Below the pieces are notes generated by a model. That model did no database searches and had not been told where the DNA came from. It was given only the letters and a program-made list of their open reading frames with translations. Source: Planctomycetaceae bacterium (GTDB taxonomy: Bacteria; Planctomycetota; Planctomycetia; Pirellulales; Pirellulaceae). From it: a stretch of DNA of 34,294 bases. Location: NCBI GenBank assembly GCA_007121535.1, contig SKKK01000359.1, positions 1 to 34,294 of the forward strand, read 5' to 3'. This document shows, piece by piece, positions 8,109-34,294 of this stretch. The first letter of the stretch is position 1. Every line of letters begins with the position of its first letter. Made by a program: the position numbers and the translations under genes.

Positions 8109-10319
8109 TTACGGAACGTGCGGGCGGCCGTCCCGGCTGGAGCCGCCCGAGGGTTCTTTGTTCCGGTTCTTCTCGCAGGCGACGACGATCTTGATGGCTT
8201 CGTACCCGATGCGGCCGTGCAGGGCGTCGTGGATCGGCCGCAGCCGGTCGGTATCGGCGTACGAGGCGACCAGGGCAATCTTCTCGGCCAGCTCCGGCGG
8301 CACCCAGCGGCTCGGGTCGTTGATCTGACGAGCAGCGATGTATTCGCACAGATACTCGTGAACCGTCGAAGAGGCTCGATTCATTTGTCGGCTGACTTCG
8401 GCGACGCTCATCCCTTGATCGAACAGCTCGAACGCCGCAAGTGCAGAAGCGTTGGGAGTTCGACTCGGCTCGCCTCGCCGGACTCGGCCGATGGCCGGCA
8501 GACCGGTTTCCAGTTGGTGCCGGGCACAGTAGTCGCAGATCAACGAAAGAACTCGCGGCCCGTACGTTGCCGCCTTTTGCTGGCCGATGCCGTGGACATC
8601 TTGCAGCAACAGCTCGTCGATCGGCCGGCGGCGGGCGAGATCGCGGAGCGTCGCGTCGCTGAATACGATGTAGGCGGGAGCCGATGCCTCCTGAGCCAAC
8701 TCGCGCCGCAAATCGCGAAGCGCCTCGAACAGGCCCGGATCGACTCCCTCCCGGGAATCGACGATGGCCGCTGCGGTCACCGCGGCTTGCCGTTGCACCG
8801 GCCGGGACAGCGACGGTGTGGCCTGAGCGCGCAGCACCTGGCGACCTTGGTCGGTGAGCTGCAGGACGTGATAGCGGGCCGACTGGCCGGATAACGGAAC
8901 CGATCGAAGGAACTGCTGGCCCAACAACTGCTGGATCCAGTCACGGATCTGATGACGCGAATACTCTTTCAACAGGCCCCAGGTGCTGAGTTTCTCGTGC
9001 CCGAATTTCAGAACCTTCGCTTCCGAGCTGCCGGTCAGCACCTTCGTGATATGGTCCGCGCCAAACCTCTCTCGGCAGCGTGCGACACACGAGAGGATCT
9101 TTTGAGCCAGTACCAGGGAATCCTCGGCGACGGCCAGGTTGCCCAGGCAGACGTCGCACGATTGGCAATCGCCACTGATTTGTTGACCGAAATGTCCGAC
9201 CAGCACGCGGTGCCTGCATACCAGCGACGTGCTGTAATCCATCACTTGCTGAAGCGCCCGCAGCCCCGAGTCGCGCACCTCGACCGGCGAGGAATCGAGA
9301 ATCCTTCGCCAGGTGAGATAGTCCCCTGCCGAATAGAACAGCCAACACTCGGCGTCCAAGCCATCGCGGCCTGCCCGGCCCGTCTCCTGCTGGTAGCTTT
9401 CCAGGGACCGAGGCAGCTCGGCGTGAATCACGTAGCGCACGTTCGATTTGTCGATCCCCATACCGAACGCCACCGTGGCCACGATCGCGTCCAATTGGTC
9501 GTGCATCAACGCCTCCTGATTCCGCAAACGGTCGTCGTCCGTCATCCCGGCGTGGTAGGGGCGAGTGCGGAATCCGTATTGATTCAGCAAGCGGTTGATC
9601 TGCTCGACACGGGACCGCGTGATCGCATAGACAATGCCGGCCTGGCCGCGAAACCGTTCCATCACCGAAACGATCTGATTCAACCCGGCAGACCGCTGTC
9701 GCACGTGGTAGATCAGATTGGGCCGATGAAATTCGCCCATCAATACGGCAGCCGATTCCAGATTCAGCGACGCGACGATGTCCGAACGGACTTGCGGAGT
9801 CGCCGTGGCTGTGAATGCGTGCAGCGAGACGCCGGGGAACCGGTGCTTGACAGTCCCGAGCAATCGGTATTCCGGGCGGAAGTCATGCCCCCATTGGCTA
9901 ACGCAATGCGCCTCGTCGATAGCAATGAAGCTGGGCGGGCTGGTCGCCAGGATGTCCAGCATGGTATCGGTCAATAGTCGTTCGGGGGATACGTACAGCA
10001 GATCGAGCTGATGCTCGCGAATCGCCCGCCCGACGATCCGCTGTTGTTCAGCACTCAGCGAACTGTTCCATGCAGCCGCTGCGATCCCCATCGCATTGGC
10101 TGAATCCACTTGATCCTTCATCAGCGAGATCAAGGGCGAGACGACGATGGCAAGACCACTTTGGCAGAGGGCGGGCAATTGGTAACACAGAGATTTGCCG
10201 CCCCCGGTCGGCAGAACTACCAGGGAATCGCGTCCACCGAGCACACATTCGATCGCCTCGTGCTGCAGAGGCAGGAAGTCATCGTATCCCCAATGCTTTT
10301 TCAGCAGTTGGTGTAACAT
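8109..10319 (-). CDS. recQ: ATP-dependent DNA helicase RecQ
   Basis: A 736-residue 3'-5' superfamily 2 helicase that unwinds DNA during recombination and repair. Visible motifs: motif 0 GYDDFLPLQHEAI (residues 11-23), Walker A PTGGGKS (37-43), SPLISLMKDQ (61-70), DEAH (135-138) with the RecQ aromatic loop CVSQWGHDFRPEY, TATATP, and motif VI QQETGRAGRDG. The zinc-binding part of the RQC region has four cysteines (C-RHR then CQSCDVC), followed by a winged-helix region, an HRDC domain at about 530-605 and a C-terminal helix-turn-helix at about 635-725. This is the length and order of a full bacterial RecQ. The ATG at 10319 has GAGGG about 8 bases upstream. The gene is divergent from the DUF488 pair, with about 200 bases between starts. 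Confidence 0.96.
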   Translation of the reverse strand: MLHQLLKKHWGYDDFLPLQHEAIECVLGGRDSLVVLPTGGGKSLCYQLPALCQSGLAIVVSPLISLMKDQVDSANAMGIAAAAWNSSLSAEQQRIVGRAIREHQLDLLYVSPERLLTDTMLDILATSPPSFIAIDEAHCVSQWGHDFRPEYRLLGTVKHRFPGVSLHAFTATATPQVRSDIVASLNLESAAVLMGEFHRPNLIYHVRQRSAGLNQIVSVMERFRGQAGIVYAITRSRVEQINRLLNQYGFRTRPYHAGMTDDDRLRNQEALMHDQLDAIVATVAFGMGIDKSNVRYVIHAELPRSLESYQQETGRAGRDGLDAECWLFYSAGDYLTWRRILDSSPVEVRDSGLRALQQVMDYSTSLVCRHRVLVGHFGQQISGDCQSCDVCLGNLAVAEDSLVLAQKILSCVARCRERFGADHITKVLTGSSEAKVLKFGHEKLSTWGLLKEYSRHQIRDWIQQLLGQQFLRSVPLSGQSARYHVLQLTDQGRQVLRAQATPSLSRPVQRQAAVTAAAIVDSREGVDPGLFEALRDLRRELAQEASAPAYIVFSDATLRDLARRRPIDELLLQDVHGIGQQKAATYGPRVLSLICDYCARHQLETGLPAIGRVRRGEPSRTPNASALAAFELFDQGMSVAEVSRQMNRASSTVHEYLCEYIAARQINDPSRWVPPELAEKIALVASYADTDRLRPIHDALHGRIGYEAIKIVVACEKNRNKEPSGGSSRDGRPHVP

Positions 10320-10337
10320 GGCACCCTCGCAGACTGG

Positions 10338-10365
10338 TTGGATCAGCAGAAAAATCGATTATACT
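10338..10365 (+). promoter_or_regulatory. Possible sigma-70-type promoter toward the DUF488 genes
   Basis: TTGGAT (10338-10343) and TATACT (10360-10365) are separated by 16 bases and resemble -35 and -10 boxes. They would give a leader of about 150 bases before the first DUF488 gene. The RecQ start lies only 19 bases to the left, so the RecQ and DUF488 control regions would touch. The call is from consensus only. Confidence 0.3.
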
Positions 10366-10416
10366 ACAAACGGGAAACAGATCGAACGGGCAAGCGGCCC
10401 CGAACAGGACGCAATG

Positions 10417-10444
10417 CGTTTTCGGCCCACGACCAACCGAGTGG
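10417..10444 (+). repeat. Half copy of the REP-like element found at 11509-11581
   Basis: Over 28 bases this stretch matches the reverse complement of 11542-11569 at 23 positions; CGTTTTCGG and ACGACCAACC are identical in both. It lies in the leader of the first DUF488 gene, whereas the complete inverted-repeat copy follows the second DUF488 gene, so the pair is bracketed by related repeat sequence in opposite orientation. Confidence 0.65.
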
Positions 10445-10520
10445 AGAGTCCGTCAGTCTGTTCGTTCTTTGTGCTCTTTGTGGGGTAATTCCAATCAAGT
10501 CGATGCGAGGAGTGCCGTTG

Positions 10521-11117
10521 GTGACTGCGACGAATTCGGTCTTGTACACGATTGGCCATTCGAACCACGAGCAGGACTACTTCTGCGAATTGCTGTTACA
10601 GCACGGGATCGACGTGTTGGCCGACGTCCGGTCCTCGCCATACTCTCGGTACACGTCGCAGTTCAATACCGAGCAGCTCAAAACCGCCTTGGCCGCCAAG
10701 GGGATCCGCTACGTTTTTCTGGGGGATCAACTGGGCGGACGGCCCACCGCTGCCGAGCACTACGACCAGCAAGGGCATGCTTTGTACCATCGGATGGCTC
10801 GCTCGGAAACGTTCCGGCAGGGCATCGAGCGGCTGGTGGTCGGTATGCAGAAATACCGGGTGGCCATCATGTGCAGCGAGGAAGATCCGTCGGTCTGCCA
10901 CCGGTTTCTCTTGGTCAGCCGTGTGATGGCGGACCAGGGCACCGAGATCCGGCACATCCGCGGCGATGGCTCGTTGGCTTCCCACGATCAGATCCGCGCC
11001 GCGGCCGGCGGAATGCAGCCTCAGGGCCTGCTCTTTCCCGAAATGGAGGACGACTCTTGGAAATCTTTACGATCGGTTTTACCAAAAGCTCAGCCGCAGA
11101 ATTCTTCGGAAGACTGA
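10521..11117 (+). CDS. DUF488-family protein, first of a tandem pair
   Basis: A 198-residue cytoplasmic protein of the uncharacterised DUF488 family. The hallmark TIGHSNH is near the N-terminus, followed by LADVRSSPYSRYTSQFN, FLGDQLGGRP, and the conserved cysteine segment MCSEEDPSVCHRFLL. The start is taken as the GTG at 10521, since GAGGAG (10506-10511) is 9 bases upstream; an ATG at 10503 in the same frame has no ribosome-binding site. The last 61 bases overlap the next gene, also DUF488, so the two are probably translated together. The biochemical role is not known. The divergent RecQ gene and the downstream dual-OB gene suggest nucleic-acid-related work, but that is inference. Confidence 0.88.
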   Translation: MTATNSVLYTIGHSNHEQDYFCELLLQHGIDVLADVRSSPYSRYTSQFNTEQLKTALAAKGIRYVFLGDQLGGRPTAAEHYDQQGHALYHRMARSETFRQGIERLVVGMQKYRVAIMCSEEDPSVCHRFLLVSRVMADQGTEIRHIRGDGSLASHDQIRAAAGGMQPQGLLFPEMEDDSWKSLRSVLPKAQPQNSSED

Positions 11118-11494
11118 AGCGGGCCGGGATTCGCAAACTGATGGACGTCCGTCTGAACAACCGGTCCCAGTTGGCAGGCTTCGCCAAGCGGGATGATCTG
11201 GCCTTCTTCTTGGGGGAGATCTGCCAGGCAGGCTACGAGCACCAGCCTTTGCTGGCGCCCAGCCAGGAGATGCTGGACGACTACAAGAAGAACGGCGGCG
11301 AATGGTCGGTATACGAGCGGCAGTTCTTCGACTTGATGGAACAACGTCGCATCGAAACCGTGCTGACGCCCGACGACTTTACACCCGCCACCGTGCTGTT
11401 GTGCAGCGAGGCCACCGCCGAGCATTGCCATCGTCGCCTGGTGATCGAGTACCTGCAACGGTATTGGCCGGACATCCACCCCGTCCATCTCTAG
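11057..11494 (+). CDS. DUF488-family protein, second of a tandem pair (TTG start)
   Basis: A 145-residue DUF488 protein, shorter than its upstream neighbour. The N-terminus EIFTIGFTKSSAAEFF matches the family's TIG motif with F in place of H, and the frame continues with LMDVRLNNRSQLAGFAKRDD and LLCSEATAEHCHRRL, the same CSE...CHR segment as in the first copy. No ATG is available. The TTG at 11057 is 6 bases after a GGAGGA, a strong argument for it as the start, and it lies inside the end of the first gene. The two proteins share family motifs but differ in length and loops, so they may form a heteromeric pair. The downstream inverted repeat may end the transcript or stabilise it. Confidence 0.86.
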   Translation: MEIFTIGFTKSSAAEFFGRLKRAGIRKLMDVRLNNRSQLAGFAKRDDLAFFLGEICQAGYEHQPLLAPSQEMLDDYKKNGGEWSVYERQFFDLMEQRRIETVLTPDDFTPATVLLCSEATAEHCHRRLVIEYLQRYWPDIHPVHL

Positions 11495-11508
11495 GCTTTG
11501 TCTGAAAA

Positions 11509-11581
11509 GGGGTCGGGAGTCGTTTTCGGAGAAAGTATGTACCATGTGGTTGGTCGTTGCCCGAAAACGACTCCCGACCCC
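11509..11581. repeat. REP-like element, 21-base perfect inverted repeat
   Basis: The arms at 11509-11529 and 11561-11581 are exact reverse complements (21 of 21) with a 31-base loop. The left arm starts GGGGTCGGGAGTCG and the right arm ends CGACTCCCGACCCC. It starts 15 bases after the stop of the second DUF488 gene. The size, the long loop and the nearby RAYT remnant (12363-12665) fit a REP/BIME-type sequence mobilised by such transposases. A diverged half copy is at 10417-10444. Confidence 0.8.
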
Positions 11582-11661
11582 ATTCGCGCAAGGTACCTCT
11601 GAACGAACTCCGACAGTTGTTTCTTTGCCGATCATTAGCGGGCTGACCCGGGGGACTCGAC

Positions 11662-12360
11662 TTGCAAATCATCATCAACCATCTGACGCGGATGCAGAAA
11701 GGCTTCATGTGCGCCGCCGGTGTCGATCCGACGACTCGGCGCCACGTCCGCCCGGTTCTGGCCAGCCGGATGCGCACCGAGATGCTGGCCTGCCACGGCG
11801 GCCCCTTCGAACTGGGTTGTCTCGTCGAACTGGGCGACACCAAGTTTGTGGGCAAGGTCCCTGAGATCGAAGATCGGCAATTCGAAGCCGCCTCGGCCCG
11901 ACGTTTGCAACGCTTGCCCTACCCGCAATTCTGGCAACTGCTGACAGAATTGGCCAACGATACGCTGGCCGAAATCTTTGGCCGCGATTTGCAACCGATC
12001 GGCGCGGCCAGTTGCGGAGTGCCGGAGTTTCGCGGTCTGCGGTCGCTGGGCTGTTACTGGGCGAACCGGCCCGGCATTCATCTGCAGACCACGGCGGATC
12101 ACACCGGCATCCGCTTCGCCTTCGACGAAGACTCGCGGCGCTACAGCATCCCCGTGACCGACATCCGCCTGTACGGTGAAGACCACGTAACGCCCGGTGG
12201 GCCCGCCGTCCAGCGTCTGAGCCAAACCCTGGCGAACCAAACTCGCGCATTAGTCAGCGTCGGATTGTCCCGCGCTTACAAAAGCACCGACGAACACCCA
12301 GCCCTTCACTGGCTGCAAATCAACAACATCCATCTGCCGCCAAACGAAACAGGGCCGTAG
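11662..12360 (+). CDS. Dual-OB-domain protein
   Basis: A 232-residue protein whose opening, IIINHLTRMQKGFMCAAGVD, resembles the dual OB-containing domain family, whose members typically open with a T-R-M...G-CVAG-D pattern and then an H-I-R-P-VL segment; here the latter is TTRRHVRPVLASR. The middle reads FELGCLVELGDTKFVGKVPEIED. The C-terminal part contains LQTTADHTGIRFAFDEDSRRYSIPVTDIRLY. OB folds usually bind nucleic acids, which would fit the neighbouring helicase. The start is the TTG at 11662, since the motif begins at once; the first in-frame ATG (11692) would remove it. It lies 167 bases after the DUF488 pair on the same strand with the REP-like hairpin between, so co-transcription is possible but not certain. 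The function is unknown. Confidence 0.7.
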   Translation: MQIIINHLTRMQKGFMCAAGVDPTTRRHVRPVLASRMRTEMLACHGGPFELGCLVELGDTKFVGKVPEIEDRQFEAASARRLQRLPYPQFWQLLTELANDTLAEIFGRDLQPIGAASCGVPEFRGLRSLGCYWANRPGIHLQTTADHTGIRFAFDEDSRRYSIPVTDIRLYGEDHVTPGGPAVQRLSQTLANQTRALVSVGLSRAYKSTDEHPALHWLQINNIHLPPNETGP

Positions 12361-12362
12361 GC

Positions 12363-12665
12363 AATTCTATTCGGAACAAACGTTACGATCACTACATTTC
12401 CCGCCGCGCTGGGAAGACTTTTTTGTGCGGCGACGGAATCGAGCATCGCAAGCAGTGGATTGAAGACCGCTTGCAGACGCTCTCCGAGTGCTTCGCCGCA
12501 AGTGTCTGCCGTTTCGCGATCCTGGACAATCACCTGCACGTCCTGGTGCGTCTGAAACCGGACGCTGCAAACGATTGGTCGGCCGAAGATGTCGTGCGGC
12601 GGTGATTGGTAGCCTATCCAGCCAAATCGGCAGACGGGCAGACCATCGAAGTAAGCCAGGCTTGA
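12363..12665 (+). pseudogene. REP-associated tyrosine transposase (RAYT) remnant
   Basis: The frame reads KTFLCGDGIEHRKQWIEDRL, then FAASVCRFAILDNHLHVLVR, then DWSAEDVVRR, which is the Y1 (HUH-type) transposase pattern of RAYTs, including the NHLHV metal-binding histidines. A TGA at 12603-12605 follows VVRR exactly where the family has a tryptophan (TGG). The frame continues with the equally RAYT-like LVAYPAKSADGQTIEVSQA until a second stop at 12663-12665. No start codon or N-terminal segment is present and the catalytic tyrosine region is missing, so the gene is dead: truncated at both ends with a probable TGG-to-TGA change inside. RAYTs move REP hairpins, such as the one at 11509-11581. Confidence 0.82.
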
Positions 12666-12964
12666 CTGCAAAGGGTCATTTTGGGTGGGTCGATTTAGGG
12701 CTCAGCGGATCGCCCGATTTGCAAGCGGACCGCATCGCTCATACGCCCCTCGCGGAAAAGGCCAAGATCCCTCGTCGCCGGCTGGTCCCCAACGTCCATC
12801 CGCACGACAATAATGGGCCGTAACAACACCGTTCGGCCGCGACAAGACTGTTCGGCGAGGGTCTCTGACCCCGCCGGAACCGCCGACCGCAGGTCTCCCG
12901 GGCCAGTCTTGTTGCCGCCGCTAAAGGACATGGAACAGCCAGACAGTTGAAAGGGAGGGGGATG
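12666..12964. other. Spacer with a 9-base inverted repeat
   Basis: About 300 bases between the RAYT remnant and the BNR gene, with no recognisable gene. ACAAGACTG (12842-12850) and CAGTCTTGT (12904-12912) are exact reverse complements enclosing a GC-rich stretch, which could be a further dispersed repeat. The ribosome-binding site of the next gene (GGGAGG, 12953-12958) lies at the end. Confidence 0.5.
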
Positions 12965-23815: not shown

Positions 23816-26800
23816 TTATCGACCCAACTCCGCGAATAAGAGATCGCGTGGGGCCAGTGTATCGAGCGGCACGTGCACAGACTTTGATTCGGCCAAAAGC
23901 GAAAGAACGTCCTCTAGCGGATTCTCACGTTCCAGTTCAAAACGGTCGCGGTGGCTGTCGGCAAGGTGATGGCGAGCGTAGCCAGCCGTTGTCTGTGGTC
24001 CGAAGGGCACATCCGCCGTCGCTGGCGATGAGCGATTCGGTTCTTCGAACTCTGCCAGCATCCAAACACTGGATAACGCCTCTGTATCGCCGCCTCCGTA
24101 CGATTCTCCCTCGCCGCCACCGTTCGCCGGAGCGCGCCAGGCGTCTGGAAAGTTGGACGGAAAGACCAACGTCTGTTCGCCCGATTGCACTGCTTCCCGC
24201 GTCTTGCCGAAATTCGGCGCGAAGAAGGCTAGATCGCCGAAATCGACCCGGCCGGACTTGTCGAAATCCGCCCACCATACATACGGCGCTTCGGACGTGG
24301 GTTCACCCACCGTCTTGCCAAAAGCCGCAGCGAAAAAGGAAAAATCTCCGAAGTCGATTTGATTGTTGTCCTCGATGTCGTAAACCACCGCCCACAACTC
24401 GGTGTCCGGAGATTCGCCCAGTACCGCCAAGCTGGCATCGCCATTGCCCAATCGTGCGATTCCGCTGGCCAACTCCATCTGCATGTCGTACGGTCCGATA
24501 TTCCAATCCGTTTGGTCCACCGGCACCTGGTCGTCGTCGGTCGAAGCGAAACCGACCCGAGCCAGCAGCACGTAGCCTTCCTGGCCGAGCCCCCCTTCGT
24601 GCGTGCTGCCTCCGATTTGATGGACTCGGCCCAAGTTGTCTTGGATCTTGCCAGTGAGGTTATCTGTAAAGCCCGGCCCGTATTGGATCTCCTGAGCCGT
24701 CAGATACTCGGTGTGGTAATGCAGATCCACCATCGCTTCGGTGATGCCCACTGTCGTCGTATCCGGCGTGCTGACCCAGATCTCGACCCAGAACGACTGC
24801 CACTCATGAACCCAATCCGCACTGAGGGGCAACTCGTCCACTTCGCCGTTATCACCAATCTCGCTCGGCTGATGGACAATCCTCACGTCGATCCGTGTCC
24901 CGCCGATGTCCGCGGGCCGGGTACCGAAGTGGATGTCTTCGCGGTGCTGGCCCGGTTCCAGTTGGATGCTGTAAGCGAACGAGCCGTCCAATAGCCCGAT
25001 CTCCCCGCTGCCGGGTCGATTCCCGGGACCGCCGTCGATTCCGCCGCCACTGGTGCTCGGATCGAAGCTCCATACGGCATCGGCCAAGGCGGGCAGGTTC
25101 AAACGGAAGAAGGTGTGCCCGGTGTTCGGCACGTTATTGTCTTCATCGTCGCCGTCCACGACCGCCAGGCCCGACGTCCGCAGCAGCTCGCGGAACTGGG
25201 CCGTCGTCAGCCGCTGGCCGTGCTGCTGCAGCGCCAACTGCTGAGCCAGCACGGCCGCTCCGGTAACGTACGGCGCCGCCATGCTGGTCCCGCGCATCGT
25301 GGCCACGCCACCGGTGGCGTTGGCCGCCGTGATCAGCGCCCCCGGAGCCAATGCATCCAGGTGGCTGCCGTGCCGCTGCGAGAAACTGGTGATCCGGTCG
25401 GGGCCGGTGGTGTAGTCCGTGCCGAACGCGCCGAAGGTCTGCCAGCCGCGGTTGCTGTCCCAAACGGCGCCGACCGACAACGAACGTGGATCGGCGGCCG
25501 GATAGGCCAACCCTTCGCGACCGCCGAAGACCGCATAGCTGTTGCCCGCCGCCGACACGGTGATCACGCCCAGCGCGTCCAACGCGGCCAGTTCGTCGGC
25601 GATCCCGTACAGACCGACCGGCTGGCTCCAGTTCTGACCGTCGCCCAAGGAAAGATTGACCGCCGCGATCTGGTAGGTGTCGACGTTCTGGATGACCCAT
25701 TGCAGGGCCTGTTCCAGATAGCCGAAGCTGCCATGCCCGCTGTCGCTGAAGACCTTCAGATGGATGATGTCCACGCCCGGAGCGACGCCGGGATACGTGC
25801 CATCCTGTGACGCGATAATGCTGGTCACGTGCGAGCCGTGTCCGGAGATGTCGCGGGCATCGGCGTTCTTATCGGCAAAGTCGTAGTGAAACACGATCCG
25901 GTCGGCAACCCCGTCGCCGTCGGCGTCGGGGCCGAAGAACGGATGACTGAGATCCAACCCGGTATCGATCACCACCACCGAGACGCCGCGACCGTCCAAA
26001 TCGGTGAACCGTGGATCGGTCCGCAGCACGTCCAACCCGATCAATTGGTGGGCCGGCTGAGCATTCGCGTCCGCCGCGCCGGATCCAAGCGAGACAGGAA
26101 CGGGGCTGCCTTCGGCCTGGTTGATCACATTGATGACGACCAGGGCATCCAGCGGCGTGATCAGTCCGTCACCGTTCACGTCGCGCGAGTCGCCCACTTG
26201 CTGCAACCGCATCGATGCACCGGGTTCCTGCGCGTTCAGCGCGTTGACGATCAGCAGCACATCCAAGGGGGTCACATATCCGTCGCCGTTGACGTCCGCA
26301 CGCACGGCCAGGTGGCTGGGCGCCACTCCCGGGAAACTGGCGATGCCGGGCGTGAACAGCATCGCATCCGAGCCCGTGTAGGTGAACGACGTCGCGCCGC
26401 CTGCGCCCGGATGGGTCTGCTCCCAGCCTTCCTGGACCACGTGCCGCACCACGTACTGGCCGGGCCGCACGTCGTCGAATGCGTACCATCCGTTCTCGTC
26501 GGTCAACGCCGTCGGTTCGCCTTCGTCCCAACTGCCGTTTTGGTTCAAATCCAGGTACACGACTTGGTTCGGCAGTACGGGTTCATCCTCGTCCTTTTGT
26601 CCGTCGCCGTTGCTGTCCCGCCAGACGACGCCGCCGATCGAGCCCAGCGCGACCAGTCCGGCATCCCATTGCAGGTTCGGTCCACTGACGACGGTAAAGG
26701 GCGCAGTCCGGCCCGTTTCCAGGTCGGCATCGCTGTCCAGGGTATCGTCGGTCCCGACGTTGGGCGGGCTGAATCCGTAACCGGCCGGCGCTACAAACTC

Positions 26801-29800
26801 CAGGAAATAGATCCGCGAGATATCGAGATCGGTGAAGCTGTACAAGCCGTCCTCGTCGGTGGTCGTCTCGGCCAGCAATTCGAACGCCGAACCATCCGCC
26901 GGACCGGCTGACGGGACGGTTCCGGCTGAAGAAAGGCCCGTAGGTCCGAAGAATCGCTGGAACGGACTGAAGCACATCTGCCACCCGAAACAACAGTCGC
27001 TTACCGCCAAACTCAGCGGCGTGGTGCCCTCTGAGTAATACAATCGAACCGTCACATCCGGCATCCCTACTTCGCCTTCGTCCTGGATACCGTTGGCATT
27101 GGCATCGATCCACACCCGGTCGCCGATGGTCGCGGTGCCTCCGGGAGTGATGGTGACGGCATCGGGCGCTTCGGGCGGATCTTCCTGGTTGCCCGCGTTG
27201 TCGAAGGCTACGCTGAAGAAAGCGTAGCGGCGGCCAGGGGCGCCCAGGAATTCGGCGGTGGTCAGTTGGGTACCCAGCAACCAGGGCACGAAGGGCCCGT
27301 CGTCTTCGGAGACGAAGACGTGGAAGGCTGCCAGCCCCGAGCCGCCTTCGTCATCACTGCCGGTCCAGGAGACCGTAAATGTGACATCGTCCGCGGTGCC
27401 GGGCAGAGGCTGCACCTCGCTTTGCGGTTTGACGGCATCCAGCGTGTTGAAAATGGGCGGCGTATCGATCGGCGCTTCGGTATCGAACACGATGCGAGCC
27501 TCAGCGTCGATCACGTCGCCGGTGGCCGCCGTGCGTTTCGCGCGGATCGAGTAATTCAGATAACCTTCCCCGGCTCCTTCTTCGTCGTTGATGGCCAGGA
27601 ATCCCACCATCGGATCCAGCGGTTGTTCGCCGGTCTCCGGATCAATGGTGACCAGCGTCCAGAAGGCTTCGCCGGTCTGGATATTGACCCCGGCCGTGAA
27701 ATCGACGAAGTAGCCCCGTTCTTCCGTCAGATCGAGACGGGTGCTGTAGAACGCCCGGTTTTCCGGCACCTGGAAGACCAGTCCGCCGAAGCCGAAATCC
27801 CCAAGACGGAAAGTGCGCCAGTCCAGGTCGTCGTCCAACTGCTGGGTGACCACGACCCGCTGCGCCGGCGCCTGGGCGAACACGGGGTCGTTTTCGTAAC
27901 GGATCATGTAATCCAGTTGCTGATCCGCCGGAATCCAATTCTCCTCGCCGTACCCGATCGGCCCGAGGATGTCGTTCGGGTCCACCGGCGGCGGCACGCA
28001 AGGTCTGTAGGTGATGATCCTTTTGCAGGTATCGGGATCAATGGTTGTGAAGAAGCCACACCCTTCGTCCGTGCCTCGATAGTCCGTGTCCCATTCCTTG
28101 CACTTGCAGCATTCGTCGGGGACGTCGATACCGAACAGCGAAGAGGTCACCAGCGATACGTTAGTCGCCGTGACGCTTGAAGCCCCCAGATTCGCGCCGA
28201 CCAGCAATTGCGGTTCAAACAGCTCGGCGACCGACCACGTCTCGCCCGTCCAGACGCTGGAAAACAGCGCCATGCGATTCTGCTCGTCTGCCGAGTCCGC
28301 GTTTGCGCTCCAGAAGACGATGGGTTGCCCAGCGACTTCGGACATGGCGATCTCACTGAGATTACGACCCGTCGCCACGATGAGGGGATCACCGAACCCG
28401 TCGCCGTCGAATCGCGACGCCAGCAAGTTGTAAGTATCGTCGCCGGTCTTGGTAGCCCAGGCGGTCCATACCGTTCCGTCCGCAAATGCGATCGCTTCGA
28501 CACCGGCATCAGGGCCAGCCGTTTCGGCTATCCGCACCGGCTCCGACCACGCGCCGGCATCGTACACGGCATAGTAGACGTCCGTCGCTTGCCGGGCAGC
28601 CATCACATCGTCGGAATTCGATTCACTGGTCAAGGAGGAGCCATCAGCCATCGACCAGACGACGATCCTTCGACCGTCCCCGTCGACAACCGCCCGCACG
28701 TCGCGGTTGATCCCCGAGCTGTTTGGCAACGCCACCGGAGCCGTCCAAACCGTCCCGTCGAACTCGGCCACGACGATCTGATCCGCCACTGTGTCGAACG
28801 GATCGCCCGCTTTGGTCCACACTGCGAATACTTGGCCATCCGGAGCGACGGCCAGATCGGCTGGACCGTCTTCCCACAACTCGTTGCCGACATCGGCGAT
28901 CACGCTGTTGTCGCCGTAGACCGCGCCCGTTCCAATGGCTCCTTCAGGGTAATAGACCCACTGAATGCCCTCCAGTTCATCACCCTCGGTGTACAGTCCC
29001 AGCACGTCCAGGGCACTGCTGTAGAAATCGACTGACCACGACCTGGCCAACGTCCAGGATCTCCACTGCGCGCTGACGGACACGGAACCGGCGACTTTAT
29101 CCACCTTCAGGCTCGGCAGGATCTGGACGTCCGCCGTGATCGCACCAGCAACCTTTGCTTCAGCATCCCAGTTACTGATCTCCGCTTTGACATAGGGCGA
29201 CAATCCGAAGTTGGCCGTCAGCGAACCCTCGTCCGGAAGGATCCAATTCGGGAACGGTGCCGTGCCGGTCCATCCCAGCGCCGCAGTCAAGCCGGCCGAG
29301 AACTCGATCCCGTTGGAGATCTTGATCGGGGTGAACCAATCGATCAGCGTAAAAGCCCAATCCAAGCCGGTGGCGATCGCCGCAGTTTGAGGAATGCGTT
29401 GCAGCACCCAGATCAGACCGCCTTCCCAGTCATATGTGCCGCTGGCGCTAAAGGCCAACTCAGCCTTATCCGGCTCCCACTGGCACGTTCGGTCGTTCGC
29501 ATTCCACTTTCCCGACCCGGTCAGACCGCTCGCGTAGGTTTCGCTACCGATCTTCAGGGAATTTTCACCCGTCACGCTGGCTGTCAACGTGCAGCCGCTC
29601 ACCCCTACCGCCCCCTTGACACTTGCCTTTTGCTCGATCAGGCCGAACGGGTCTTTGAATTTCACTTCGTACTGGAACGACGTCGAGACATTGGACGGTT
29701 CGATCGCGGGAGTCCTACTGATGCCCATCCCGTTGGGGAACGAAGTCGGATTGACGATAAAGGTATCGAAGTACAGGTCATGGTCGTCGTTGATCGAGTC

Positions 29801-32800
29801 ATCCGATTTGAGGTAGACGACGATGACGGTGCCATCCGGCGCGACGGCCACCGCAGGCGCGATGTCGCGCACTTCGTCGTCGGTCAGCGCTATCACCTCG
29901 CTCCACTCGTAGCCGCCGTCGCTTTCCGACCGGCCGACTGCGTAGTGAATCTCGGCGTCGTTGCCGACGCCCTGGCTCCACGTAGCGATCAATCCCGGCG
30001 AAGTTCCCTCGATCAGATTGGGTGCCGTGCGCAGGCTCAGACTGGTCCCCGGCTCGTCGGCGATGATCTTGGCACCCACCCAGTCGGTACCGTCAAAGTA
30101 CGCATGCCAAATCGCGTTTTCCTTGCGGTACACGATATGGGTAACCCCCTGCGAGTCGACCGCTAACGCGGGTTGGGCCAGCGAAATCGGAAATTCGGCG
30201 AGTTCCAGCTCCCGCACGAAGAGTGAGATTTCTTGGGCATCGGCGTCCTCGGCGATCACCAAGGAAGGCGGCAAATCGTCAGGCTGTCCATCACGGTCTT
30301 GATCGAATGCCAGCTCTCCGTCCAGCGCCAGTTCGTAAACGCCTGGTTGGAGGTAGAGAAACGTAAACGTGCCGTCATCGCGCGTCACCGTGCTCGCAAC
30401 CTGACGGTACCGGCCATCACGCGATTCGTAGGCCGCCAAAACGACGTTGGCCAACGGCTCCTCGCTCTGCGCATGAAGAACGGTTCCGGAGGCGACCAAC
30501 GAGGGTAGGTAATCCGGGTTGTCGGCGTAGAGCTGTTCGAACATCCCTCGCACGTCGCGCAGCGGCCGGCCGGGCTCCGACAACTCGGTGGCCAGCCGGT
30601 TGAGGAAACGTACGTAATGGCCCCAAGTGTCACCGACCCGCGACGGGATGTTGGCCCAGAAAGCGTCCCAGTCCTGCATGGAGATCGACTCCGGCTTGAC
30701 CGACGCCTTGATCTGCTCCCATTGGGCTGTCGAGATGACCGTGCGGTCGTCATGGGTGAACGCTTCCACCCGCACGTTCACGCCCTGCGCCGCCGTGCCG
30801 CTGCGGTAGTAAACCGACACGGTATTCAGCGAGCCCGGGCGCAGGATGTCCAGCGGACCTTCCTCCGGCGATCCCAGGATCTGCAGCGGCGCCCCGGTAC
30901 GCAACTCGCCCGGACTGAAGCCCAGCGGCGTATTGGTCACCCCGGTGGCGACCAGCAGCGGCGCCATCGCGTCGCCGTCGCCGTCGTTGCCGAACAGCAC
31001 ATCGAAGCGGTAGTTCCGGTTGGGCGCAACCACCGCCGGCCCGGCTCCCAACGTGTCGATGTTGTAGCCGGTCCCGGCCACGACCGTCAGCGAGTCCTCC
31101 AGCAAGACCAGAACGTCCTGACCGGGATCGTACGCTGCTACCGTGTACACGTTCGGCGGAACCTGGAACATGTCAAAGGTCACAAACGCGGTTGCCGAAT
31201 CCTGCAAGTAGAGGCGTTCGGCCGGCAGAGCATTCAGATTGCCGTCCAGCACGTAGAACTCCGTATCCTCCGTGAATCGTGCCCCGGAGACCTTGAGCGT
31301 CGCATTGCCCGAGTTGCCGACTCGACCGGCGTTTACGTCCAGGATCGAAAATGGGATGATCTCTGCACTGATGGTATACTCCGGCGCGCCGCTGGCCACC
31401 GTGCCGTAGGCCATCACGTAGTACACGCCCGTCTGCTCGACCGGCAAAACAATCTGCTGATCCGAGATGAACGGCTGGTTGGCTGCCCGGTCGTGTAGAG
31501 TCCGCGAGGGCATATCCCCGAAGCGGACGTATAGTTCGCTGTAGGCGTCCTCGGCCCCCTCGAAACGCAGCCGCACGGTCTCGCCCGCCTCGAGCACTTC
31601 GGTCTTGTAAAACACCGCCCGACCTTGGGCCAGGGTGCCGGTCTGCGGCTCGCCCAACGGCAGCAACTGGGCGTCGATATCCACCCGGTCCAGCGATGCG
31701 CCGATGTTGTTCGTCTCGTCGTCTTCCGGGATCTGATTCAAAACGTCGGTGCGGAGGATCACGTGGTACTCGCCGGGCACAACCCCGGGCAGCGGAGCCG
31801 TCACCTCCTGGGTGTAACTATCGCCGCCCGCCAGCGGCCCCACTCGCAGCACCCGCGCAAACAAGGCGTCGTGGATGTCCCACACATCGTCCGCCGAAAT
31901 GTACAGCGAATCGTACCAGCTTCCCAACGCGGCATCCTCGCCCTGGTTCTGTACGGTATAAGCGATCGTGGCATTCACACCGGGCGAAGCATTGGACGGA
32001 ACGGTGATGGTCCCCACGACCAGATCGGCCGGCGGAACCAAGTTCACCAACATCGACGTGCGGTCGTAGTTGACGTTGTTCAACCGGTTGGGCTCCTTCA
32101 GCAGGTTGCCCCGGTCCGCAACGACAAACACGTAAAAGGGACCTGAAAGTCCGCGCGGGATCGTGAACGAGTGCGTCTTGGTATAGCTTTCCCCCGTATC
32201 CAGCGAGTTGTGATAGACGTGCCCCAGGGAGGTATCCGAGCCCGGGTCCAGCACCTGGTCCAACGACAGGTACACCTGATCGTACCAGTTGCGCGGCGTC
32301 GGATCGCCGTCGTTGCGGACCGTCCACGTCAACTCGAACGGCTGGCCGCTGAAGGCTTCGGCCGGAGCATCCACGTCGACCAGCACCAAATCCGGAACGT
32401 TGACCGTGCCGGGTCGCGGAGGCTCGATCGTGCCCAAATCGATCAAACGCGTGTTGTTGTTCGCGTCGCTCTCGAAGACCTGCTTGTCGGCGTCCGTCAA
32501 GACGCCCAGATAGTAGGGCCCGGAAACGTCGGTAGGAATCTGGACCGTCGCCTGAGCAGTATACGACCCGCCGGCTTCGAGCGGGCTGGTCCGCACGAGG
32601 CTGCCCAGGTGCCTGTCGTTGCCGTTGCCCAACACGTCGTCCGGCGACAGATAGATCCTGTCGCGCCAACTGAGCGCGTTGGTCTGACCTGCACCGGTGT
32701 TCTCGACGGTCCACTGGACGGTCACCCAGTCGCCCGCGTGCACGGGTCCGGTGATCGGCTCCAACGCGGTCACCTGCAGATCGGCCAGATTCTGGACGAT

Positions 32801-34294
32801 GTTCACCGGGACCAGTGGCGAATCATTGTTGTCGTCGTTGTCGCCCTCATAGACCTGGTTGGTGGCATCGGTGCGGACGTACAGGAAGACGGTTCCAGAC
32901 AGATCGATCGGGATGTTGATCTGTTGGTCGAGCATGCTGTAGGAATCTCCGGCGGCCAGATTGCCGTTGCGGACAAACGTACCCAACAGCCGGTCGTCGG
33001 GTCCGCCTTTGACATTGTCCAACGAGACATAAACTCTGTCCCGCCAGGTGCCGCTGACGGTGGGACCCGTCCCCTGGTTCAAGACGCTCCAACTGGCCCG
33101 CAGGAAGCTGCCCGCCTGGGCCGTTGCCCAGGGCTGGAAGCTGCCCGGGACGATCACCAGATCCGGCGGGTTGGACACGATCTGCACGGGCGCCGCGCTG
33201 GCGGTCACGTTGTTGGTCTCGCCCGGCGAACCCGGTGGCCCTTCGAAGACAACGTTGGTCGAATCGGTATGGACCAGGACGTAGTAATCGCCCTCCAGGC
33301 CGTGTGGCAGCGTGAACGTCACGGTCCGCGTGTAAGAATCGTTCGGCGCACCGAAGACGTCCAGGGCGCCGTAGCGAACCACGCTGCCCAGCAGGATGTC
33401 ATCGTCATCCAACGTGGTGTCGGTCGACAGGTAGTAGGCGTCTCGCCACGAGTTGTTGGGAGTCCTGGCCACTCCGTGGTTGGTCACTTGATAGGTGAAC
33501 GTCAGCGGATGGCTGGCCAGGGCGTTGGCCGGCGCGTCGACATAGTCCACTTCCAAGTCCGGCGGCGTCAGCGTGATGTTTGTCCGTCTCGGTTGCAGCG
33601 ATTCATCTCGCCGCACTTCCAGATTGTTGTCTCCGAAAATGTGTTCGAACACATGATTGCTGCTGTCGGTATGTACGAAGAAGTACCAATCGTCTTCGAT
33701 ATGGACCGGGATGGTCACCGCCAAGTGCCGTGTGTAACTCTCGCCCGGGTCCAACGCACCGCTGCGCCATACGCGGCCCATGTTGATCGCATCGACCAGG
33801 GCGTCGGGGGACGAGGACAGATACACCGTGTCGAACCAGCCGGTCTGCAGCGTCCGTCCACCCGCGCCTGGCGTGGTATCGTCGTTCAGCACCGTCCAAC
33901 TAACCGTCACCGTCTCGTAGGAAAACGCCAGATCGGGTCCCGTGATCTCGGTCACGCGCAGATCCGGCGGCGGAGTCATCGTCACGCGCGTCTTCGGTCC
34001 CACTCCCACATTGTCGTGCTCGTTGTTGTGTTCATAGACGTGGTTGCCGGCGTCCGTCTTGACGATGAACCAGTAGTCGCCTTGAATCCCCTGCGGCAGC
34101 GTGACGGTCAGGCTGTTCAAATAGCTGCCGCCGGGAGTCAGATAGCTGGGGTTGGCGACCTGGCCCAGGTAAATGTCGCTGCTGTCCAGCACGTCGTCGG
34201 TGGACAGCCACACGCGGTCGTACCAGACGGGCGCGTTGGTCGAGGCGTCTCCCGTATTGGTAACCACCCACTGGACCACCGCCTGCTGGCTGGA
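23816..34294 (-). CDS. Giant secreted CARDB / propeller / SdrD / dockerin / subtilisin protein, 5'-incomplete
   Basis: At least 3,490 residues; the frame is open to the right edge, so the GTG near 34279 is not the start and the signal peptide is outside. Domains in order (numbering from 34279): seven CARDB repeats (to about 875), a pre-peptidase-C-like and an IPT-like segment, a carboxypeptidase-regulatory-like fold (GTVLHAQSEEPLANVVLAAY), a BNR-type propeller split by a roughly 290-residue unknown insert (about 1510-1790), a cysteine cluster (ECCKCKEW, about 2050), a DUF7619-like segment (WIPADQQLDYMIRYENDP), SdrD-type B repeats (about 2383 and 2542), two dockerin type I EF-hands (DVNGDG, about 2660 and 2698), a complete peptidase S8 domain (about 2740-3035), and two further EF-hand-like units (about 3300-3358). 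The tail ends LLFAELGR. It is likely a cell-surface or extracellular adhesin with built-in protease; partner and substrate are unknown. Confidence 0.9.
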   Translation of the reverse strand, partial: SSQQAVVQWVVTNTGDASTNAPVWYDRVWLSTDDVLDSSDIYLGQVANPSYLTPGGSYLNSLTVTLPQGIQGDYWFIVKTDAGNHVYEHNNEHDNVGVGPKTRVTMTPPPDLRVTEITGPDLAFSYETVTVSWTVLNDDTTPGAGGRTLQTGWFDTVYLSSSPDALVDAINMGRVWRSGALDPGESYTRHLAVTIPVHIEDDWYFFVHTDSSNHVFEHIFGDNNLEVRRDESLQPRRTNITLTPPDLEVDYVDAPANALASHPLTFTYQVTNHGVARTPNNSWRDAYYLSTDTTLDDDDILLGSVVRYGALDVFGAPNDSYTRTVTFTLPHGLEGDYYVLVHTDSTNVVFEGPPGSPGETNNVTASAAPVQIVSNPPDLVIVPGSFQPWATAQAGSFLRASWSVLNQGTGPTVSGTWRDRVYVSLDNVKGGPDDRLLGTFVRNGNLAAGDSYSMLDQQINIPIDLSGTVFLYVRTDATNQVYEGDNDDNNDSPLVPVNIVQNLADLQVTALEPITGPVHAGDWVTVQWTVENTGAGQTNALSWRDRIYLSPDDVLGNGNDRHLGSLVRTSPLEAGGSYTAQATVQIPTDVSGPYYLGVLTDADKQVFESDANNNTRLIDLGTIEPPRPGTVNVPDLVLVDVDAPAEAFSGQPFELTWTVRNDGDPTPRNWYDQVYLSLDQVLDPGSDTSLGHVYHNSLDTGESYTKTHSFTIPRGLSGPFYVFVVADRGNLLKEPNRLNNVNYDRTSMLVNLVPPADLVVGTITVPSNASPGVNATIAYTVQNQGEDAALGSWYDSLYISADDVWDIHDALFARVLRVGPLAGGDSYTQEVTAPLPGVVPGEYHVILRTDVLNQIPEDDETNNIGASLDRVDIDAQLLPLGEPQTGTLAQGRAVFYKTEVLEAGETVRLRFEGAEDAYSELYVRFGDMPSRTLHDRAANQPFISDQQIVLPVEQTGVYYVMAYGTVASGAPEYTISAEIIPFSILDVNAGRVGNSGNATLKVSGARFTEDTEFYVLDGNLNALPAERLYLQDSATAFVTFDMFQVPPNVYTVAAYDPGQDVLVLLEDSLTVVAGTGYNIDTLGAGPAVVAPNRNYRFDVLFGNDGDGDAMAPLLVATGVTNTPLGFSPGELRTGAPLQILGSPEEGPLDILRPGSLNTVSVYYRSGTAAQGVNVRVEAFTHDDRTVISTAQWEQIKASVKPESISMQDWDAFWANIPSRVGDTWGHYVRFLNRLATELSEPGRPLRDVRGMFEQLYADNPDYLPSLVASGTVLHAQSEEPLANVVLAAYESRDGRYRQVASTVTRDDGTFTFLYLQPGVYELALDGELAFDQDRDGQPDDLPPSLVIAEDADAQEISLFVRELELAEFPISLAQPALAVDSQGVTHIVYRKENAIWHAYFDGTDWVGAKIIADEPGTSLSLRTAPNLIEGTSPGLIATWSQGVGNDAEIHYAVGRSESDGGYEWSEVIALTDDEVRDIAPAVAVAPDGTVIVVYLKSDDSINDDHDLYFDTFIVNPTSFPNGMGISRTPAIEPSNVSTSFQYEVKFKDPFGLIEQKASVKGAVGVSGCTLTASVTGENSLKIGSETYASGLTGSGKWNANDRTCQWEPDKAELAFSASGTYDWEGGLIWVLQRIPQTAAIATGLDWAFTLIDWFTPIKISNGIEFSAGLTAALGWTGTAPFPNWILPDEGSLTANFGLSPYVKAEISNWDAEAKVAGAITADVQILPSLKVDKVAGSVSVSAQWRSWTLARSWSVDFYSSALDVLGLYTEGDELEGIQWVYYPEGAIGTGAVYGDNSVIADVGNELWEDGPADLAVAPDGQVFAVWTKAGDPFDTVADQIVVAEFDGTVWTAPVALPNSSGINRDVRAVVDGDGRRIVVWSMADGSSLTSESNSDDVMAARQATDVYYAVYDAGAWSEPVRIAETAGPDAGVEAIAFADGTVWTAWATKTGDDTYNLLASRFDGDGFGDPLIVATGRNLSEIAMSEVAGQPIVFWSANADSADEQNRMALFSSVWTGETWSVAELFEPQLLVGANLGASSVTATNVSLVTSSLFGIDVPDECCKCKEWDTDYRGTDEGCGFFTTIDPDTCKRIITYRPCVPPPVDPNDILGPIGYGEENWIPADQQLDYMIRYENDPVFAQAPAQRVVVTQQLDDDLDWRTFRLGDFGFGGLVFQVPENRAFYSTRLDLTEERGYFVDFTAGVNIQTGEAFWTLVTIDPETGEQPLDPMVGFLAINDEEGAGEGYLNYSIRAKRTAATGDVIDAEARIVFDTEAPIDTPPIFNTLDAVKPQSEVQPLPGTADDVTFTVSWTGSDDEGGSGLAAFHVFVSEDDGPFVPWLLGTQLTTAEFLGAPGRRYAFFSVAFDNAGNQEDPPEAPDAVTITPGGTATIGDRVWIDANANGIQDEGEVGMPDVTVRLYYSEGTTPLSLAVSDCCFGWQMCFSPFQRFFGPTGLSSAGTVPSAGPADGSAFELLAETTTDEDGLYSFTDLDISRIYFLEFVAPAGYGFSPPNVGTDDTLDSDADLETGRTAPFTVVSGPNLQWDAGLVALGSIGGVVWRDSNGDGQKDEDEPVLPNQVVYLDLNQNGSWDEGEPTALTDENGWYAFDDVRPGQYVVRHVVQEGWEQTHPGAGGATSFTYTGSDAMLFTPGIASFPGVAPSHLAVRADVNGDGYVTPLDVLLIVNALNAQEPGASMRLQQVGDSRDVNGDGLITPLDALVVINVINQAEGSPVPVSLGSGAADANAQPAHQLIGLDVLRTDPRFTDLDGRGVSVVVIDTGLDLSHPFFGPDADGDGVADRIVFHYDFADKNADARDISGHGSHVTSIIASQDGTYPGVAPGVDIIHLKVFSDSGHGSFGYLEQALQWVIQNVDTYQIAAVNLSLGDGQNWSQPVGLYGIADELAALDALGVITVSAAGNSYAVFGGREGLAYPAADPRSLSVGAVWDSNRGWQTFGAFGTDYTTGPDRITSFSQRHGSHLDALAPGALITAANATGGVATMRGTSMAAPYVTGAAVLAQQLALQQHGQRLTTAQFRELLRTSGLAVVDGDDEDNNVPNTGHTFFRLNLPALADAVWSFDPSTSGGGIDGGPGNRPGSGEIGLLDGSFAYSIQLEPGQHREDIHFGTRPADIGGTRIDVRIVHQPSEIGDNGEVDELPLSADWVHEWQSFWVEIWVSTPDTTTVGITEAMVDLHYHTEYLTAQEIQYGPGFTDNLTGKIQDNLGRVHQIGGSTHEGGLGQEGYVLLARVGFASTDDDQVPVDQTDWNIGPYDMQMELASGIARLGNGDASLAVLGESPDTELWAVVYDIEDNNQIDFGDFSFFAAAFGKTVGEPTSEAPYVWWADFDKSGRVDFGDLAFFAPNFGKTREAVQSGEQTLVFPSNFPDAWRAPANGGGEGESYGGGDTEALSSVWMLAEFEEPNRSSPATADVPFGPQTTAGYARHHLADSHRDRFELERENPLEDVLSLLAESKSVHVPLDTLAPRDLLFAELGR
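25180..26060 (-). other. Peptidase S8 (subtilisin) domain inside the giant protein
   Basis: The full catalytic set is visible: Asp in SVVVIDTGLDLSHP (near 25965), His in DISGHGSHVTSI (near 25835), the oxyanion Asn in VSAAGNS (near 25545), and Ser in RGTSMAAPYVTGA (near 25285). The domain follows directly after two dockerin-type EF-hands and has no recognisable I9 propeptide just before it. All key residues are intact, so an active serine protease is expected. Confidence 0.9.
31640..34294 (-). repeat. Seven CARDB repeats in the giant gene
   Basis: Each unit of about 125-140 residues begins (P/A)DL, has a WTVxNxG strand, WxDxVYLS, a GxLxxGxSYT turn, G-x-YY-xVxTD and an acidic NN end. Units begin near 33970, 33560, 33165, 32788, 32398 and 32031; the first is cut by the window edge. 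CARDB domains are adhesion-type beta-sandwiches. The units have diverged, so the array is old rather than a recent amplification. Confidence 0.85.

Follow-up and report, generated by a model that had tools for sequence, protein, structure and literature searches.

Does a pair of DUF488 genes work together with the RecQ helicase and the dual OB-fold protein encoded beside it, and would such a group of genes be a system in its own right? This question is raised by contig SKKK01000359.1 of a Planctomycetaceae bacterium, which was analysed over a length of 34,294 nucleotides (the window) and is one of the contigs of a 9.3 Mb genome (G000) that is 95% complete. A RecQ gene on its reverse strand (8109-10319, 736 amino acids) is separated by a divergent intergenic region of 201 bases (10320-10520) from three genes on the forward strand, namely DUF488-A (10521-11117, about 198 amino acids), DUF488-B (11057-11494, 145 amino acids) and DuOB (11662-12360, 232 amino acids), the last encoding a protein with two predicted OB folds; DUF488-A, DUF488-B and DuOB together are called the cassette. 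A sequence-only reading of this DNA had described a full RecQ divergent from two overlapping DUF488 genes, and coordinates, strands, domains and an overlap of 61 bases all bear out that arrangement. It had further proposed that the DUF488 pair works with RecQ and the dual-OB protein, and that the whole is an undescribed system. The answer favoured here, to which we give a probability of roughly 55%, is that the three forward genes form one DNA-processing cassette, a variant of the PADLOC candidate PDC-M45, and that the divergent RecQ is a fourth, co-inherited component of it in a clade of planctomycetes.

DUF488-A, DUF488-B and DuOB are a real, widespread and conserved cassette found across many phyla. 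A wide scan, in which DUF488-B alone served as query against one genome per species in 84,980 species, yielded at least 571 relatives, of which the best 80, all bacterial, were examined and underlie all wide-scan counts given here. These loci belong to many phyla, and DUF488-A adjoins DUF488-B in 74 of the 80, with DuOB no more than 1.5 kb away in 67. The phylum of the window was surveyed in 294 genomes with the three families searched separately. DuOB was present in 13 genomes and the DUF488 pair adjoins it in 11, among them G191, where DuOB lies on the opposite strand and the DUF488-B is a distant one of 50 bits; in G166 pair and DuOB occupy the ends of two contigs, and in G041 DuOB stands on a short contig without the pair. 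When only the 12 phylum genomes above the PF22557 cut-off are counted, the pair adjoins in ten, and in an eleventh both are found at contig ends. DUF488-B reached at least 146 bits in 13 phylum genomes (next score 68), and 12 of the 19 genomes with at least 150 bits for PDC-M45B carry the cassette. For the window's order, DUF488-B of at least 198 bits was detected in 18 of 296 genomes (next match 82), and the window genome itself shows only two DUF488 genes and one DuOB gene, all at this locus.

The order of the pair is nearly invariable, DUF488-A preceding DUF488-B in 99 of 100 pairs, and from this order together with the adjacency in 74 of 80 loci the two proteins probably form a heterodimer. 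DuOB, in the 93 loci where it lies within 1.5 kb, stands before the pair in 52, after it on the same strand in 39 and on the opposite strand in two. A second cassette of a same-genus relative (L251, G587 C398, 2878-4702) belongs to another group, has DuOB first and is situated near a contig end. Six loci with both DUF488 genes gave no DuOB profile match, and the pair is at or near a contig end in four of these. DUF488-B without DUF488-A was encountered in six of the 80 wide-scan loci; as L119, L130 and L134 offer more than 2 kb on both sides but no DUF488-A, some DUF488-Bs seem to be orphans. At L061, L062, L063, L064 and L065 a DUF488-A relative has neither DUF488-B nor DuOB in its available flanks, and these five loci were excluded from the cassette counts. 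L050, L186, L189 and L194 were dropped as duplicates before a clustering of 112 loci, and L188, whose sequence overlaps that of L187, before counts on 111 loci.

Linkage of RecQ to the cassette was detected in six distinct genomes, represented by the window, L066, L068, L233, L234 and L235, and always in the same layout, with RecQ divergent and upstream of DUF488-A across a gap of 66-383 bases. The wide scan contributed a RecQ neighbour in two of 80 loci (L066 and L068, both from planctomycetes), and in the order RecQ adjoins DUF488-B in two of the 18 genomes (the window and G526). Within the family a RecQ of the window's type (at least 600 bits) occurs in 29 of 80 genomes, and three of these RecQs, with flanks of up to 1.5 kb considered, adjoin the cassette (the window, G610 and G598). 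Where both DUF488 genes are present and the upstream flank covers 3 kb or more (76 loci), RecQ lies upstream in six. In the 112-locus clustering, whose ranking of neighbours leaves out shadow open reading frames (ORFs) on the cassette's other strand, the commonest neighbour families were an ABC-transporter ATPase, at scattered places in seven loci, and RecQ, in six. Adjacency by chance, suggested by the lack of RecQ in the flanks of the phylum survey, was rejected, since the wide, order and family surveys gave five further linked loci. The result named in advance as refuting the sequence-only reading, a lack of RecQ or dual-OB enrichment beside DUF488 pairs outside very close relatives, did not arise: enrichment of the dual-OB gene holds generally, and the six linked helicases show 49-78% pairwise identity (78% being L066 with L233).

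No two of the six linked loci (15 pairs) have a further ORF of at least 100 amino acids in common within the available flanks. These flanks are uneven: beyond RecQ they extend over 2.7-14 kb, and beyond DuOB there is no flank for L066, one of 0.8 kb for L235 and one of 8-22 kb for each of the remaining loci. The surroundings of the commoner second RecQ served as a control: the window genome and G587 of the same genus shared 11 neighbour ORF matches, antisense shadows included, and of the other pairs four shared one to four matches and the rest none. As loss of gene order is normal between distant genomes, the retention of RecQ stands out, yet it is no proof. Of the three genomes of the window's genus that were examined, G000 and G587 possess both RecQ and the cassette and G626 possesses neither; the cassette orthologues of G587 show 84% (A), 88% (B) and 78% (DuOB) identity and lie on one contig, the RecQ orthologue (77%) on another. 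In the RecQ tree, for which the window, L232, L233 and L234, being longer, were used in place of L202, L203, L204 and L211, the six linked RecQs and that of G587 constitute one clade (support 99/96), and in the cassette tree of 100 loci the six linked cassettes group with L067 (Shimodaira-Hasegawa approximate likelihood ratio test 99). RecQ and cassette distances among seven genomes are correlated with r 0.93, a value attained in 2 of 5040 permutations, true order included; the two trees disagree, with weak support, on the position of L068. RecQ and the cassette have been co-inherited within one clade, from which we infer a functional link between them. The proposed partnership of the DUF488 pair is supported for the dual-OB protein as a general cassette, and for RecQ in this one clade only.

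RecQ is a repair helicase that unwinds DNA, and the window protein displays the Pfam domains DEAD, Helicase_C, Zn-binding, RQC, HRDC and a C-terminal HTH_40 and scores 665 bits against the NCBIfam equivalog TIGR01389 (cut-off 640). A Dpd system, considered on account of 723.8 bits against the PADLOC model DpdF, was rejected, because models of the DpdF type are judged to match RecQ helicases in general and the equivalog fits instead. DuOB reaches 26.1 bits against PF22557 (gathering cut-off 27), aligned over profile positions 1-207 of 210, and gave no match up to E 1 when its sequence was compared with solved structures. Its structure, modelled with a predicted local distance difference test score (pLDDT) of 93.2, is predicted to contain two OB folds. 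The first of these resembles a telomere end-binding protein (Z 7.0, 76 residues, root-mean-square deviation (rmsd) 2.4) and the single-stranded DNA-binding protein SSB (Z 6.8), and the top Foldseek matches over the whole length are the two-OB HIN domains of cytosolic DNA sensors (E 5e-4, query TM-score 0.37). Telomere-end proteins, SSB, RPA, POT1, baculovirus LEF-3 and an aspartyl-tRNA synthetase are all among its structural matches, and most of the 50 OB matches listed are single-stranded DNA-binding or replication proteins. OB folds often bind nucleic acid, RNA included, and DuOB likely does so too, the structural matches giving its fold and not its specificity.

Both DUF488 proteins exceed the Pfam cut-off of PF04343 (22.2), DUF488-A with 85 bits and DUF488-B with 72.2, and DUF488-B also matches DUF488-N3a (38.5 bits, cut-off 27). 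The motifs C-x-E-x5-CHR and D-x-R are kept in both proteins: D35, R37, C118, E120, C126, H127 and R128 are invariant in 16 DUF488-A sequences, and D30, R32, C116, E118, C124, H125 and R126 in 14 DUF488-B sequences. The sequence of DUF488-B had no match among solved structures up to E 1. Its predicted structure (pLDDT 92) gave weak Foldseek matches, headed by CTP synthetases; those lower down included PFA-DSP-type Cys phosphatases and methylases of the CbiL/OphA kind. A second comparison, made with a tool for which Z values under 8 are common, ranked CbiL best (Z 8.1, rmsd 3.4, 118 residues) and gave Z 7.2 for diphthine synthase and Z 7.0 for the phosphatase laforin (rmsd 3.2, 111 residues). 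Burroughs and Aravind are said to have placed a RapZ-C-DUF488-DUF4326 clade in the rhodanese-phosphatase superfamily in 2023, and their abstract reportedly predicts that members of this clade process DNA ends in conflict systems; the predicted fold of DUF488-B may fit that superfamily.

A mechanism can be proposed from these parts. A helicase, RecQ in the window and SNF2 in a fusion described below, would open DNA or move along it, and DuOB would bind the single strand or end so exposed. DUF488-A and DUF488-B, paralogues in a fixed A-B order, may represent the two parts of one enzyme, which would modify or trim DNA ends or the sugar-phosphate backbone by means of a predicted Cys/His/Arg/Asp site.

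The contexts in which the cassette occurs elsewhere bear on its purpose. In L107 a SNF2-type helicase, which resembles the HmaA-like helicase of L048, is followed by other ORFs, HmaB, DuOB, DUF488-A, DUF488-B and HmaC; the fragments L083 and L099 retain the order HmaB-DuOB-A-B-HmaC, and in L136 DUF488-B adjoins HmaC. The gene order in L087 is brxC, two ORFs, pglX, DuOB, A, B, pglZ and brxL. In L048 a methylase that matches HmaB in part (86.6 bits) comes first, then a small ORF, then SNF2 fused to DUF488-A, and last DUF488-B and DuOB; the fusion (L048:10253-13672, reverse strand) is a single frame of 1140 residues with HmaA as best PADLOC match. A methylase of the PglXI type directly precedes DUF488-A in L135, where a SNF2-like protein comes after DuOB, and a protein with Schlafen/AlbA_2 and HATPase_c_4 domains directly precedes DuOB in L077, L078, L110 and L128. 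DuOB, A and B are located in an island of an Agrobacterium plasmid where an integrase, a CBASS cyclase and a HORMA protein are also encoded, and type I and type IIG restriction-modification (RM) genes are among the cassette's neighbours in other places. Plasmid records with a DUF488-B relative number 123, and 81 of these plasmids are predicted to be conjugative (two of the 123 regions were read); phage records contained no DUF488-B match at 1e-10. When 78 immediate neighbours on the same strand from 64 loci were compared with PADLOC, neighbours on the opposite strand or above 1300 amino acids being excluded, the tallies among the first 25 of 224 families included mad3 (4), HmaB (3) and AriA (3). 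A gene with a ScpB domain was observed upstream of the cassette or of DUF488-B in the planctomycete loci L187 (5314-6957, reverse strand), L190 and L088.

Defence against foreign DNA appears a more likely purpose than housekeeping, given the patchy distribution, the plasmids and the nesting in defence operons, and repair is a serious alternative, chiefly for the RecQ-linked form, on the grounds of RecQ itself, one neighbourhood with UvrA and the plain surroundings of the linked loci.

Several points weigh against a DNA-processing cassette with RecQ as its co-inherited component. The linkage of RecQ is restricted to one clade and so amounts statistically to one event kept by descent; 26 of the 29 window-type RecQs of the family are without a cassette in flanks of up to 1.5 kb; the L067 genome has no window-type RecQ despite carrying the clade's cassette; and the assembled sequence of L234 has an interrupted RecQ frame but open cassette frames. 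DUF488-A relatives also occur solitarily, seven of the 19 phylum genomes having neither a strong DUF488-B nor any DuOB. The structural matches are of intermediate quality, with a best Z of 8.1 for DUF488-B and of 7.0 for DuOB; Foldseek ranks a CTP synthetase (E 7.5e-3) first for DUF488-B; and no chemistry can be read from a fold. None of the ten larger ORFs that flank L066, L068, L233, L234 and L235 matches PADLOC at E 1e-10, which makes the RecQ-linked clade unlike a defence island. Several immediate neighbours elsewhere are, according to Pfam, ordinary metabolic genes, and because of these and because the PADLOC scan provides family tallies only, the defence context is given here as examples and not as a rate.

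A first alternative is that the cassette is a stand-alone PDC-M45 and RecQ an unrelated neighbour retained by descent in a single lineage, an explanation that we consider possible at odds clearly short of even. It agrees with the single clade, the family RecQs away from the cassette and the L067 genome, as well as with the 78 of 80 wide-scan loci that have no RecQ in their available flanks, many of which are short. What speaks for a closer bond is that RecQ stays where none of the 15 pairs of linked loci has another neighbour in common, that G587 keeps both RecQ and cassette though they lie on separate contigs, both being absent from G626 of the same genus, and that the distances of the two match (r 0.93).

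A second alternative, given about the same odds, is that the genes form a system for the repair of DNA ends, adducts or crosslinks, in which RecQ plays its usual role of repair helicase, and that their presence in defence operons reflects the repair of damage done to self DNA by those systems. The established function of RecQ, the 123 plasmid records with DUF488-B relatives and the flanks of the linked loci, with none of ten ORFs matching PADLOC, are consistent with this, as is one enterobacterial plasmid (pKrDSM16656L, L253, 12158-15432), on which a DUF488-B relative of 56% identity is situated directly behind UvrA. This relative is without DUF488-A and DuOB, and genes for formaldehyde detoxification, UvrB and an annotated anti-phage Ppl share the same stretch. 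However, neither the UvrA nor the UvrB of this plasmid has a relative among the ORFs of the 112 loci, and the patchy occurrence in 18 of 296 genomes of the order, the nesting in Hma and BREX and the plasmid island with CBASS genes fit defence better. That the cassette acts on RNA (ends or 2'-OH) instead of DNA is improbable: OB folds also bind RNA, an aspartyl-tRNA synthetase is among the DuOB matches and the superfamily that DUF488-B resembles is said to include RNA-end enzymes, but the systems with which the cassette is associated (RecQ, BREX, Hma, type I and IIG RM) are DNA systems, and most of the 50 listed OB matches of DuOB are single-stranded DNA-binding or replication proteins.

The DNA-processing cassette with a co-inherited RecQ is retained as the favoured reading, and it could be extended to a more speculative proposal, which we regard as rather doubtful: in the clade a dedicated RecQ would supply single-stranded DNA both to DuOB, acting as a HIN-like sensor, and to a DUF488 heterodimer that modifies DNA ends in an undescribed way, so that the four genes would make up a stand-alone system, and the same cassette would plug into BREX, Hma and SNF2 systems as a subunit. 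If this were true, the cassette would be a general exchangeable effector of immunity or repair on opened DNA.

The finer structure of the locus was also inspected. DUF488-A begins with GTG, with an alternative GTG at 10512, and DUF488-B and DuOB both begin with TTG. The stop of DUF488-A at 11117 lies beyond the DUF488-B start at 11057, so that the two genes overlap out of frame, and a GGAGG at 11045-11049 on the forward strand, within DUF488-A, is the likely ribosome-binding site of DUF488-B; with this start inside DUF488-A after GGAGG, translation of the two genes is likely coupled. The dual-OB gene had been said to follow the DUF488 pair on the same strand, and so it does, but not directly, a palindrome of 73 bases (11509-11581) outside the cassette standing between DUF488-B and DuOB. 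Its 20-base half occurs 329 times in the genome (178 forward and 151 reverse), frequently in pairs spaced 51 bases, which makes it a dispersed element resembling repetitive extragenic palindromes; in the same-genus relative L250, DuOB comes directly after DUF488-B without such a gap. No promoter-like match was obtained in a sigma-70 scan of 10250-12700, no family match in an Rfam scan of the window, and no obvious common motif when the six RecQ/DUF488-A intergenic regions were compared by eye. Farther away in the window, an ORF with a transposase domain of the IS110/IS116/IS902 type is found at the contig start (2-982, forward strand), and a giant protein of at least 3487 amino acids with subtilase, dockerin, CARDB and SdrD_B domains is encoded at 23816-34294 on the reverse strand, its frame running past the contig end.

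As to novelty, the claim of an undescribed system had to be given up: the trio is already the PADLOC candidate PDC-M45, and its domains have Pfam models. DUF488-A matches PDC-M45B with 203.7 bits (E 5.5e-61) and DUF488-B matches PDC-M45C with 214.2 bits (E 1.4e-64). DuOB takes the place of PDC-M45A, and the window protein gave no match to the four PDC-M45A models at E 0.1. These models likewise miss the DuOBs of L046, L055, L068, L072 and L101 and match those of L049, L051, L054, L056 and L081; as the group of the window's DuOB is missed, the window system is taken to be a variant of PDC-M45. One source presents PADLOC PDCs as putative candidates obtained by guilt by embedding, with Hma-embedded candidates among them (PMC12988326), another terms them unpublished candidate systems (PMC11811056), and DUF488 is mentioned in two more (PMC9674854; PMC12704722). 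Since such candidates come from embedding, PDC-M45 was probably defined through its nesting in Hma and BREX, and this nesting was withdrawn as a new finding. The literature searched contained no mention of PDC-M45 and no experimental test of it, and new, as far as the literature was searched, are the RecQ-linked clade and the SNF2-DUF488-A fusion. DUF488 is a widespread family, for which the pairing with RecQ, the SNF2 fusion and the nesting in Hma and BREX give a testable role on DNA opened by a helicase, and PDC-M45 now has a subunit predicted to bind DNA, a predicted active site and, as a natural partner, a helicase.

Compared with known systems, the RecQ of the window resembles RecQ DNA helicases in its complete domain set and equivalog score and differs in being a second, longer type and not the family's commoner RecQ (G000 C130). 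The cassette proteins have Pfam matches to DUF488, DUF488-N3a and DuOB, the latter just under its cut-off, although DUF488-A remains under that of DUF488-N3a (18.7 versus 27). The structural neighbours of DUF488-B include Cys phosphatases and methylases similar to diphthine synthase, both of which the rhodanese-phosphatase superfamily reportedly contains. The likeness to Hma, a system of the helicase HmaA, the methylase HmaB and the ATPase HmaC, lies in the cassette between HmaB and HmaC in L107 and in the L048 fusion, which best matches HmaA, and that to BREX in the cassette between pglX and pglZ in L087, whereas the window is without relatives of HmaB, HmaC, PglZ and BrxL: phmmer with PglZ and BrxL of L087 and HmaB and HmaC of L107 gave no match among the window ORFs, and Pfam revealed none of the four in 15 of these. 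PDC-M45 is matched by DUF488-A as PDC-M45B, DUF488-B as PDC-M45C and DuOB in the position of PDC-M45A, and the window system is set apart from it by its linked RecQ and by a DuOB that comes last, in contrast to the first place that DuOB holds in 52 of 93 loci.

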